A stretch of 64,000 nucleotides of DNA from an uncultured Prochlorococcus sp. Its GTDB lineage: Bacteria; Cyanobacteriota; Cyanobacteriia; PCC-6307; Cyanobiaceae. The DNA lies in the NCBI RefSeq assembly GCF_902626525.1, contig NZ_CACOFR010000003.1, positions 62,001 through 126,000 of the forward strand, read 5' to 3'. Position numbers and translations under genes: made by a program. The notes beneath the pieces are model-generated. The model saw only the letters and a program-made list of their open reading frames with translations. It made no database searches and was not told the origin of the DNA. Of the stretch, positions 18,996 to 22,146 are shown one piece after another (the first letter of the stretch is position 1; each line of letters begins with the position of its first letter).

Positions 18996-20171
18996 CTATA
19001 TCTCTTCAAAAATTGAATTTAATTTATCTAAAAGTATATTAACTTCACGTCGAGAAATAATTAACGGTGGGACAATTCTAACCACGTTCCCACCTGCAGG
19101 AACTACAAGTAAACCTTTTTCAAAAGCTTTTAAGGTAATTTTTTTTGCATCTGCATAATTATCATTAATAACAAGACCTTGTATTAGCCCTAAACCTCTT
19201 TTATCACATATGATATTAGGAAATTTTTTTGATAATTTTTCAAAACCAGTACTTAATTGTTCTCCTCTTAAAAAAACATTATTGAGAAGATTTCTTCTTG
19301 TAATTTCTTCTAAGACAGTTAAGGCTGCCTTGCAGGCAAATGGGTTCCCTCCAAAAGTGCTTGCATGATCACCGGGAGAAAAAATATTAGCTTTTTCTTT
19401 TACCAATAATGCACCAATTGGGTGCCCCCCGCCTAATCCTTTGGCAAGAGTGAATCCATCAGGTTCAATTCCTAAATTTTCATAACCCCACATTCGCCCA
19501 GTTCGACCAACCCCACTTTGGACCTCATCAAAAATCAGAAGAGAATTATATTGATCACATATTTCTCGTAGGCTTTTGAAAAATATTTTACTTCCAGGAA
19601 TTACGCCACCCTCTCCCTGAATTGGTTCAACTAAAACGCCAGAAATTTTTTGATCATTATTGTCACATTCTTCAAATAATTTTTTTACAGAATCAAAATT
19701 GTTATATTTGAAAAACTTGAATCCTTTCACCATTGGTTCAAAACCTTTTTGGTACTTGGGCTGACCTGTAGCACTCAAGGCTGCCAATGTTCTGCCATGA
19801 AAACTAGATTCAGCAGCGAGAATAATTGATTCTTTTTCTTTTTTTAATGTATTACCATATTTTTTAATTAATTTAATTGCTGATTCATTTGCTTCCGCAC
19901 CACTGTTGCAGAAAAAGACGCTTTCAGCACAACTCATTTTTGTTAAAGTTCTGCTTAATTCTTCTTGTTCTTCAATGTTGTACAGATTAGAAATGTGTTG
20001 AATCTTTTTTAGTTGAGTTGATAACTTTTTTCTTAAAACTCTATCGCTATGTCCAAGACTGCAAGTTGCTATCCCAGCGACTGCATCAAGATACCTTTTA
20101 CCTTCTTTGTCCCAAAGCCAACAACCTTTTCCTTTTTTGAACGATATATTGAAACGACCATAAGTATTCAT
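18996..20171 (-). CDS. argD: Acetylornithine aminotransferase
   Basis: ArgD is a PLP-dependent class III transaminase in arginine synthesis. Motifs are FCNSGAEANESAIK, FHGRTLAALSATGQ, LLIFDEVQSGVGRTG and the PLP lysine in FTLAKGLGGGHPIGA. ATG 20171 (MNTYGRFNISF) gives 391 residues, the normal length. The open frame continues upstream to 20252, but that extension is simply the tRNA-Leu gene read through and is rejected. argF, a later step of the pathway, is at 55.4 kb. Confidence 0.95.
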   Translation of the reverse strand: MNTYGRFNISFKKGKGCWLWDKEGKRYLDAVAGIATCSLGHSDRVLRKKLSTQLKKIQHISNLYNIEEQEELSRTLTKMSCAESVFFCNSGAEANESAIKLIKKYGNTLKKEKESIILAAESSFHGRTLAALSATGQPKYQKGFEPMVKGFKFFKYNNFDSVKKLFEECDNNDQKISGVLVEPIQGEGGVIPGSKIFFKSLREICDQYNSLLIFDEVQSGVGRTGRMWGYENLGIEPDGFTLAKGLGGGHPIGALLVKEKANIFSPGDHASTFGGNPFACKAALTVLEEITRRNLLNNVFLRGEQLSTGFEKLSKKFPNIICDKRGLGLIQGLVINDNYADAKKITLKAFEKGLLVVPAGGNVVRIVPPLIISRREVNILLDKLNSIFEEI

Positions 20172-20176
20172 CAAAG

Positions 20177-20258
20177 TGGGAGCGGTCGGACTTGAACCGA
20201 CATACCCGAAGGTGCCGCATTTTGAGTGCGGTGCGTCTACCAATTCCACCACGCTCCC
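20177..20258 (-). tRNA. trnL: tRNA-Leu (CAA)
   Basis: The reverse strand gives an 82-nt class II tRNA. The acceptor stem GGGAGCG pairs with CGCTCCC, and the discriminator is A73. The anticodon stem CCGCA/TGCGG encloses the loop CTCAAAA with anticodon CAA. A long variable arm (CACCTTCGGGTATG region) and T-loop TTCAAGT follow. It ends six bases before the argD start codon. Confidence 0.96.
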
Positions 20259-20543
20259 AAGGCTTTTGAATAATAAAGAACCTTTTTATTATAACAAAAA
20301 TTATTTTCTTGACTATGCGTTTTCCGGTAAAAGGAGAGCGTTTAATATTACGCTTGGTATAAAACAAATGCTTTTAAATAAACGTAGAAACATTTTATTG
20401 GATTTGCTGACAAGAAATTTGATATAGATACTATTTCTTCACGGCTATGGTACAATTATGTGCCATAAAAATCATTATGCCTCTTATTTATATGAGAAAG
20501 CTTCATGTTTAGTAATAATATGTTATATTGGGAAAAAAATTAA
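20259..20543. other. Intergenic region between tRNA-Leu and the small ORF pair, with a 22-bp palindrome
   Basis: This 285-bp gap between divergent units has no gene-length frame that looks real; an 83-residue frame crossing the tRNA is a shadow. The notable element is the interrupted palindrome at 20446-20467 (TATGG.ACA....TGT.CCATA), listed separately. It lies about 77 bases before the first small ORF. Confidence 0.45.
20446..20467. promoter_or_regulatory. 22-bp interrupted palindrome, possible operator or RNA hairpin
   Basis: The arms TATGGTACA and TGTGCCATA are complementary except for one T/G position, which would still pair as U-G in RNA, around a 4-base centre ATTA. It contains TACAAT, a possible -10 element, at 20451-20456. 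It could be an operator for a dimeric regulator or a transcript hairpin. It does not fit the NtcA pattern GTA-N8-TAC because the right half reads TGC. Confidence 0.4.
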
Positions 20544-20651
20544 ATGTCTAAATCTCAAGCAAAAAAATTACCACTAAAACTTGCTCCTTATCTTTTTATA
20601 GTATTAACTATTTTTACAGTATTTGAATCTAATAATGGAATTTGGGTATGA
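20544..20651 (+). CDS. Candidate 35-residue membrane microprotein
   Basis: An ATG-to-TGA frame encodes 35 residues: a basic N-terminus (MSKSQAKKLPLK) followed by one hydrophobic helix (LAPYLFIVLTIFTVF). Its stop codon overlaps the start of a second small membrane ORF as ATGA, the arrangement used for translational coupling of partner subunits. I do not recognise it as any known photosystem, b6f or NDH small subunit. Chance is possible, but two coupled membrane frames in a row make a real gene more likely. Confidence 0.5.
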   Translation: MSKSQAKKLPLKLAPYLFIVLTIFTVFESNNGIWV

Positions 20652-20758
20652 GTGAATTTCAATTTAATGGTCTAAATGGACCTTGGTCAAATCGCTTTTT
20701 AGTGATTTTTCTTCTTTTTTTAGGATGTATTTCTTTAGTAAATATTGCATATATCTGA
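20648..20758 (+). CDS. Candidate 36-residue membrane microprotein, coupled to the preceding ORF
   Basis: It starts at the ATG that overlaps the previous TGA (ATGA). The 36 residues have a polar N-terminal half with FNGLNGPWSNRF, then a single hydrophobic helix (LVIFLLFLGCISLVNIAYI) reaching the C-terminus. Size, membrane topology and coupling suggest a small subunit of a membrane complex. No family is recognised. It ends 17 bases before the convergent murA stop. Confidence 0.5.
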   Translation: MSEFQFNGLNGPWSNRFLVIFLLFLGCISLVNIAYI

Positions 20759-20775
20759 AGGCAGTAAATTAAATT

Positions 20776-22146
20776 TTAAGCCGCTCTAAATTTTGACATT
20801 TCTTCTGATTTAGTCTCTATTTTATAACTTTTCCCACCAAAGGTTTTGTGATTAAATTCTCTCGAAATCTTTATACCCAATTTCTCCAATTTTGATTCAA
20901 AATTTTCATAACCTCTATCCAAATGATCTAAACCATATATTTTGCTAATGCCTTCAGCTATAATTCCAGCGATTATTAATGCGGCAGATGACCTTAAATC
21001 TGAGCCAACTAAATCCATCCCCTTAATTGTTTGAACTCCTTTGATATAAGCTATATTTTTATTTAATTTTATACTGGCGCCCATTTTTTTTAGTAAATTA
21101 ATATGATTCATTCTGTTTTCGAAAATTGTTTCAGTTATTTTTGATTCGCCTTTGGCAATTGTCATAAGAGCAGTAAATGGTGCCTGCAAATCAGTAGGAA
21201 ATCCCGGGAAGGGCGCTGTATAAATATCTACTCCTTTAATCTCTTTACCAATTATTGTAATTGAATTTCCTTTAATATTAATTTTACTGCCACTCTCTTG
21301 AAGCTTATTTATAACAGCCTCTAAATGGTGAGGAATAACAGGAGAAATTGTGATTGAGGAGGAAGTCGCAGCCGCCGCTATTAAAAAAGTTCCAGCCTCT
21401 ATTCTGTCTGGAATTACTTTGTGGGTACATCCACCAAGTTTATTGACACCATCAATAATTATTTTTTCTTTACCAGCGTCGTAAATTCTTGCTCCCATTT
21501 TATTAAGCATTTGACATAAATCTTGAATTTCAGGTTCTCTTGCAGCATTTTCAATAATAGTTCTTCCTTCCGCTAATGATGCTGCCATTATTAGAGTTTC
21601 GGTTGCGCCTACACTTGGAAAGTTTAATTTGATATGTGTACCGTGCAGTTTATTTTTCTTTCTCTTTATTTTTGCCTTAACAATTCCCTCTTCAATAATA
21701 ATTTCCGCTCCTAGTGCTTCAAGTCCATTAATGTGCTCATCTATTGGTCTTGAGCCAATATCGCACCCTCCAGGTAATGGGACTTTAGCTTCTCCAAATT
21801 TGGTTAATATTGCACCTATACAAAAAAAACTAGCCCTTAGTCCATTCACTAATTCATATGGTAGTTCTTTAATGGAAATATTTTTTGAATCTATCTCTAA
21901 CTTATTATTTTTATCTATTAAATTAACTCCTAAATTTTCAAGGATATTCCTCATTTTTTCAATATCAGTAAGACGAGGAACATTCTCAAGAATTATTCTT
22001 TCATTTGTTAATAATGATGCCGTCAGTAATACCAATGCCGAATTCTTTGCACCACTTATCTGAACTATTCCATTTAATTTGCCTTGGCCAAAAATCTTTA
22101 AATTTTGGGATTTAAGATATGACTTTTTTTTGCTTCCGCAAACCAT
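20776..22146 (-). CDS. murA: UDP-N-acetylglucosamine 1-carboxyvinyltransferase
   Basis: MurA transfers enolpyruvate to UDP-GlcNAc, the first committed step of peptidoglycan synthesis. The substrate-binding Lys34-Asn35 are in ISGAKNSALVLL, and the catalytic cysteine (Cys128, the fosfomycin target) is in PLPGGCDIGSRPID. The C-terminal GYENFESKLEKLG is also typical. The length of 456 residues includes a short N-terminal lead (MVCGSKKKSYLKSQNL) before the domain. It stands alone on the minus strand, divergent from the SpoU methyltransferase gene. Confidence 0.95.
   Translation of the reverse strand: MVCGSKKKSYLKSQNLKIFGQGKLNGIVQISGAKNSALVLLTASLLTNERIILENVPRLTDIEKMRNILENLGVNLIDKNNKLEIDSKNISIKELPYELVNGLRASFFCIGAILTKFGEAKVPLPGGCDIGSRPIDEHINGLEALGAEIIIEEGIVKAKIKRKKNKLHGTHIKLNFPSVGATETLIMAASLAEGRTIIENAAREPEIQDLCQMLNKMGARIYDAGKEKIIIDGVNKLGGCTHKVIPDRIEAGTFLIAAAATSSSITISPVIPHHLEAVINKLQESGSKINIKGNSITIIGKEIKGVDIYTAPFPGFPTDLQAPFTALMTIAKGESKITETIFENRMNHINLLKKMGASIKLNKNIAYIKGVQTIKGMDLVGSDLRSSAALIIAGIIAEGISKIYGLDHLDRGYENFESKLEKLGIKISREFNHKTFGGKSYKIETKSEEMSKFRAA

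Follow-up and report, generated by a model that had tools for sequence, protein, structure and literature searches.

Very small membrane proteins with a single helix are found among the low-mass subunits of the photosystems, the cytochrome b6f complex and NDH-1, namely PsaI/J/M, PsbI/K/L/M/N/T/X, PetG/L/M/N and NdhP/Q. A further group is formed by the HLIPs (or SCPs), one-helix members of the chlorophyll a/b-binding family whose chlorophyll-binding motif is of the ExxNGRxAM type, and many other bacterial one-helix peptides act on membrane proteases, transporters or kinases. In Synechocystis, HLIPs dimerise and bind the chlorophyll synthase ChlG and Ycf39, according to PMC12142464. Regarding Prochlorococcus, PMC2518516 reports 113 new ORFs of 33–130 aa in strain MED4, and the pair of genes described below may be among them (Table S2). 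No description of this pair was found in searches of open-licence papers.

Two overlapping genes between tRNA-Leu and murA

The window analysed here, that is, the whole stretch of 64,000 nucleotides, belongs to a Prochlorococcus genome whose 44 contigs total 1.53 Mb. Two frames on its plus strand, ORF1 (20544–20651, 35 aa, MSKSQAKKLPLKLAPYLF...NGIWV) and ORF2 (20648–20758, 36 aa, MSEFQFNGLNGPWSNRFLV...NIAYI), encode predicted one-helix membrane peptides and share four bases in an ATGA start/stop overlap (20648–20651, plus strand), exactly with the lengths, positions and overlap given in the initial annotation. As also stated there, the pair is located between tRNA-Leu and murA. The left flank is a gene for tRNA-Leu(caa) on the minus strand (20176–20258), and murA is a convergent minus-strand gene (20776–22146) that has a match in 99 of 101 family genomes and lies 17 bp from the ORF2 stop codon. 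The pair had further been placed behind a palindrome. An A/T palindrome does exist near the tRNA-Leu gene (20283–20300) and is probably the one that was meant, but it is weak (overlapping 12-nt A/T arms, 92% complementary) and 244 nt upstream of ORF1, and the element directly preceding the pair is a conserved promoter block (20500–20529). Minus-strand promoter-like matches surround the palindrome, the region containing five on both strands compared with 4.2 expected by chance, and neither a link to the gene pair nor any part played by this element is evident.

Matches to either ORF yielded 171 loci, in 166 of which the pair could be parsed (those missed being L182, L188, L190, L209, and L217). 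In every one of the 166 parsed loci, the last base of the ORF1 stop codon is base 4 of ORF2 (position 1 being the ORF2 start). These loci represent 114 distinct pairs, and the ORF2 start is ATG in 113 of them. The exception, L027, carries ATA, and the next in-frame ATG would give a 10-nt overlap there; in a few other loci, an additional in-frame ATG lies two codons upstream and would result in a 10-nt overlap as well. Moreover, pN/pS reaches only 0.22 for ORF1 (109 sequences of equal length) and 0.21 for ORF2 (114 sequences), each calculated from 1500 random pairs, and third codon positions are the most variable in both ORFs. The two alternative frames are interrupted by stop codons in 106 and 109 of the 109 ORF1 sequences, and in all 114 ORF2 sequences in both cases. 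ORF1 and ORF2 are real genes under purifying selection. The conservation in related genomes on which the initial annotation depended is present, and its suggested check for selection gives pN/pS of about 0.2 on each frame. The opposite reading, in which the frames occur by chance within a region that is non-coding or specifies an RNA, finds some ground in the A/T-rich intergenic DNA and the lack of an annotation family, but it is refuted as far as sequence allows, with a negligible chance of being correct, by the low pN/pS, the frame-specific conservation, the preserved overlap, and an Rfam scan of positions 19900–21000 in which the tRNA was the sole match above the gathering score and none fell at the pair. 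The start/stop overlap kept in evolution is a trait expected of a translationally coupled pair, and translation of ORF2 may be coupled to that of ORF1 through ATGA.

Both peptides contain one hydrophobic stretch, with 19-residue Kyte–Doolittle maxima of 1.94 (ORF1) and 2.59 (ORF2), and AlphaFold2 models each as a single helix, comprising residues 11–29 in ORF1 (mean pLDDT 79) and 13–35 in ORF2 (mean pLDDT 77), as the initial annotation had proposed. In alignments of 16 rows, the invariant residues include Y16, F18, G32, and W34 in ORF1, although G32 varies once in a second set of 22 rows, and G8, L9, W13, S14, RFLV, and N32 in ORF2, whose head reads GL/WS.RFLV. The N-terminus of ORF1 is rich in Lys. 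Membrane helices are oriented according to the positive-inside rule and, because of their positively charged heads, both peptides are probably N-in, C-out.

The judgement that neither frame is a known small subunit of the photosystems, cytochrome b6f or NDH-1 was borne out by sequence and profile searches. Neither peptide had a match in the PDB at E ≤ 10, by sequence or by profile, or any match in Pfam and NCBIfam, including the chlorophyll a/b-binding family PF00504. Likewise, the 16 alignment rows of ORF1 had no Pfam match, and those of ORF2 retrieved only Sarcoglycan_1 in two rows (best E 0.32).

Distribution and probable origin of the pair

The gene pair is found in one genus only and is nearly universal within it. 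In profile searches covering 250 genomes per ORF, 33 of the 34 same-genus genomes yielded both ORFs with E ≤ 2e-16; in the 216 genomes from 36 other genera, neither profile gave a match below E 2e-3. A sequence search with ORF1 in 200 genomes of the genus, many of which are incomplete, gave E ≤ 2e-6 in 156; a tally of 195 is reached when chance matches up to E = 1 are included. Among the 66 that are at least 90% complete, the match is strong in 62 and weak in four (G023, G103, G139, and G181). The murA match is also absent in G023, G139, and G181, so that the region is probably missing from these assemblies. In G103, murA and tRNA-Leu are both present, 89 nt apart and without the pair; this is a clean loss, and the pair is dispensable there.

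The ORF2 profile found 172 relatives in the collection of named genomes, and the 80 listed of them are all titled Prochlorococcus or uncultured Synechococcaceae, including P. marinus MIT 9314 and MIT 9201, which we take to be high-light strains. By these named members, the genus bearing the pair is taken as high-light Prochlorococcus.

Outside the genus, murA was matched in 93 genomes, and 24 of these loci were compared. The gene next in line is argD in 22 of the 24, and tRNA-Leu(caa) is present in 23. The junction between murA and tRNA-Leu measures 11–40 nt in 20 of these 23 loci, leaving no room for the pair, and 221–284 nt in the other three, where the pair is absent as well. Given its presence within the genus and the junctions without it in other genera, the pair probably dates from the genus ancestor, in which it arose at, or moved into, the murA/tRNA-Leu junction. 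Peptides as short as these diverge fast and, thus, a distant homologue may exist elsewhere. A relative from genus g56 (26–39 aa, KLVPYIF.AV...) was considered in this regard and set aside as a weak lead, with E 0.002–0.016 per genome for the listed matches of that type and a neighbourhood that differs from the one around the 33-aa peptide of genus g1 (see below). In the family search, murA-like matches occurred twice in each of four genomes from other genera (G202, G209, G237, and G290).

Relatives of the peptides and the promoter

Weak second matches of ORF1 pointed to a conserved 33-aa peptide (MSKNNLYIPLKVVPYIF...), whose profile retrieved two further branches (MDFISKSQGYIPLKAVPYIFF... and MDFISKKQGYVPLKLVPYIFF...). 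These peptides of 33–36 aa from high-light Prochlorococcus correspond to no Pfam family and are named PLKxxPYxF here. The MDFISKSQGYIPLKAVPYIFF... branch is present in the window's own genome (G000:C18:15001–15108). Peptides of the MDFISKKQGYVPLKLVPYIFF... branch (35–36 aa, MDFISK..P(L/F)KxVPYIFF) begin immediately behind an hli gene, with its TAA stop adjoining their ATG, in all eight loci found in seven genomes (L266, L269, L270, L271, L272, L273, L275, and L309). The preceding hli frames carry NGRFAMIGF and TGQIIPGF, presumably HLIP marks; one of them, scanned against PF00504, scored 18.6 bits (E 0.0028), below the cut-off of 22.3. No hli motif occurs in four scanned loci of the single-copy branch (L263, L264, L267, and L276).

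Using a PLKxxPYxF profile aligned without ORF1, hhalign matched it to the ORF1 profile with a probability of 95.8 (E 7e-9, 42% identity, 26 columns), compared with 0.1 for ORF2 against the same profile and 0.4 for ORF1 against ORF2 as controls, this pairwise E being flattered because the partner had been chosen by search. Of 16 same-genus genomes searched throughout with this PLKxxPYxF profile, 12 show ORF1 (E from 5e-4 to 0.05; 0.002 in the window's genome) and the other four do not reach 0.05; ORF1 accounts for 12 of the 15 further matches of the profile in these genomes, and 145 genomes of other genera gave three chance-level matches (E 0.03–0.05). This similarity to the PLKxxPYxF core, based on about 26 residues around one helix and on modest genome-wide E-values, supports the view that ORF1 is probably a diverged paralogue of the PLKxxPYxF peptides. 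Both share their length, an SK head, the PLKxxPYxF core, one hydrophobic stretch, and the same genus. However, the PLKxxPYxF peptides are located behind hli genes or alone, with no ATGA pair, and their tails differ from the FGSNxGxW tail of ORF1. ORF1 itself adjoins no hli gene, and the sole HLIP-like frame found in the window is one of 85 aa with ELVNGRAAMIGF near position 2621 on the minus strand.

Two further small features were noted. The 33-aa peptide at L228 (2516–2617, minus strand, MSKNNLYIPLKVVPYIFISITAIAITAATYVIT) has one and the same sequence in 12 of 16 loci read from the genus, and the Rfam RNAs Yfr10 and Cyano-1 are located 2 kb from it (L228, 275–491). A 37-aa ORF in L276 (1500–1613, MQTVSKNYLIPIKFLPWIFWVIISIASIYLCKTAWIS), located some 3 kb away from a PLKxxPYxF peptide, has an ORF1-like core and a KTAW tail.

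ORF2 resembles the tail anchor (WSNKFVVIALLVISAIALSKQAWI) of a protein of 137 aa that is encoded in the same genus (G000:C30; L100, 334–747). The hhalign probability is 92.8 (E 4e-7, 25 columns without a gap; genome-wide E 0.004) and, by eye, the last 24 residues of this protein (WSNKFVV...SKQAWI) match ORF2 from W13 to its end. Unlike ORF2, the protein has about 110 residues before the anchor, with no Pfam family above the cut-off. The kinship of ORF2 with this anchor is suggestive only, and ORF2 has no hli link and no photosynthetic link of its own.

The promoter block preceding the pair (GCTTCATGTTTAGTAATAATATGTTATATT, plus strand) follows the consensus GCTTCATnaTtAGTAATATTgTGTTATATT in 49 distinct loci and contains a −10-like TATATT (20524–20529) located 14 nt before ORF1. 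This distance to the ATG is 13–17 nt in 44 of the 49 distinct regions and, therefore, the leader would be very short and the mRNA nearly leaderless. The core of the block, AGTAATATT(N)TGTTATATT, also written AGTAATATT(N)nTGTTATATT, recurs before some hli genes with a one-base difference in spacing. When 12 genomes were searched with a pattern containing an additional spacer base, 59 matches were obtained, compared with 27 for the reversed pattern used as a chance control. Ten of the 59 are found 24–28 nt before an hli ATG, and these ten include one of the two matches with a single mismatch and both of those with none, the latter two being promoters of hli-peptide operons. Two further matches have an hli start 131 nt downstream, and 47 have none within 150 nt; the window's own genome contains three matches, none with hli. 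Since the ten hli promoters come from five of the 12 genomes and from two hli gene types, eight of them from one type, they represent few independent events. Moreover, six of the eight hli-peptide operons have a different type of hli gene, and the box is missing from the 450 nt before the peptide (4–7 mismatches at best). Taken together, the occurrence of this core before the start codon of the pair supports a promoter element shared between the pair and some hli genes.

The promoters of hli genes in L317, L318, L329, L311, L315, L337, L339, L344, L348, and L362 display spaced half-sites (TTTACA, TTAATATT, TGTTATATT, or TTTACAT-like), an arrangement that we take to resemble an RpaB/HLR1 array; compared with these arrays, the pair's promoter is more degenerate. 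Its box agrees with the HLR1/RpaB consensus at 13 of 16 positions, a score that is not informative by itself, as 79 sites within the window reach at least 13. Two identical copies of a box in G015 (L359 and L363) precede an hli start by 131 nt, and the same box in L315 leads to an hli start at 24 nt.

Proposed role and comparison with known systems

The hli-linked relatives of ORF1 and the promoter core lead us to propose, tentatively and with somewhat less than even confidence, that the pair is a light-stress-linked operon of two co-translated one-helix thylakoid micro-subunits that pair with each other and work beside HLIPs. The two-gene operon would have occupied the murA/tRNA-Leu junction from the genus ancestor onwards, and its transcription from the conserved promoter with the hli-shared core would generate a short, nearly leaderless mRNA. 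Translation would start with ORF1, with that of ORF2 coupled to it through ATGA, so that both peptides, made together in one membrane, could associate through their helices into a small hetero-complex. This complex may serve as a light-stress accessory of thylakoid pigment–protein complexes in assembly, repair or photoprotection, beside HLIPs and not as an HLIP. A bolder extension, which is possible but doubtful, is that PLKxxPYxF constitutes a dedicated family of one-helix proteins that do not bind chlorophyll and partner HLIPs, with the murA–tRNA-Leu operon as its stable core member, forming 1:1 with ORF2 an hli-co-regulated hetero-complex that protects or rebuilds pigment-proteins under surface-ocean light.

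Part of the evidence would also fit small, genus-specific structural subunits of a known large complex (photosystem, b6f, NDH-1 or ATP synthase) unrelated to light stress, considering the size of the peptides, their one helix, the K-rich head of ORF1, the preserved ATGA overlap, and the near-universal presence in the genus. This reading is nonetheless unlikely, since no credible match exists in PDB, Pfam or NCBIfam, other genera possessing these complexes yielded no such pair, probable paralogues of ORF1 are located behind hli genes, and G103 has cleanly lost the pair. Also unlikely is a pair of regulatory or stress micropeptides acting on a plasma-membrane protease, transporter or kinase, in which case the likeness of the promoter to those of hli genes would reflect only a common light or stress regulator. 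Many bacterial one-helix peptides do act in this way, and ORF2 resembles the tail anchor of the 137-aa protein and not a photosynthetic subunit, but the relatives of ORF1 in hli operons are at odds with such a role.

The short, hydrophobic nature of the peptides and the occurrence of several related ones in one genome might also suggest a locus of type I toxin-like peptides, a possibility that PMC2518516 raised for other short ORFs of Prochlorococcus. The overlap of two genes at a single site, the strong purifying selection on both, and the lack of any Rfam match except the tRNA above the gathering score make it very improbable in this case. Searches of phages and viral contigs, which returned no relative of either peptide, also argue against it: among phages, ORF1 had no match at E ≤ 10, its hli-linked relative none at E ≤ 1, and ORF2 only seven records, all with E of 0.7 or worse and none with 80% coverage, and viral contigs contained no relative of ORF1, ORF2 or the PLKxxPYxF profile.

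Few phototrophs of the surface ocean are as abundant as high-light Prochlorococcus. If the light-stress operon proposed above is correct, near-universal overlapping micro-genes that have escaped annotation would be a missing part of how these cells cope with high light using a minimal genome. The pair, found only in this lineage, is tied to hli genes through the paralogy of ORF1 and the promoter, and the exact peptides are now named so that they can be searched for in existing membrane proteomes and transcriptomes.

Several known systems resemble the pair in part. The Yfr6 33-aa peptide and the 'downstream-peptide' ORFs, as presented in PMC1242208, PMC2864571 and PMC2518516, are likewise short Prochlorococcus ORFs from transcript or comparative work, and they were considered because of a 33-aa peptide; they were ruled out by location and leader, as Yfr6 lies between PMM0659 and PMM0660 in MED4 and has a structured leader, whereas the pair has an apparently very short one and no Rfam match. 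The low-mass subunits of the photosystems, cytochrome b6f, and NDH-1 are similar in size and in their single helix, but the pair has no sequence or profile match to them and is found in one genus only. HLIPs are comparably tiny one-helix proteins that function in a thylakoid stress context. Unlike them, ORF1 and ORF2 lack an ExxNGRxAM-type motif, the only match to which in the window lies near position 2621 on the minus strand, and NGRFAM is seen instead in the hli frames preceding the ORF1 relatives. Relatives of ORF1 directly follow hli genes, and some hli genes share the promoter core of the pair.
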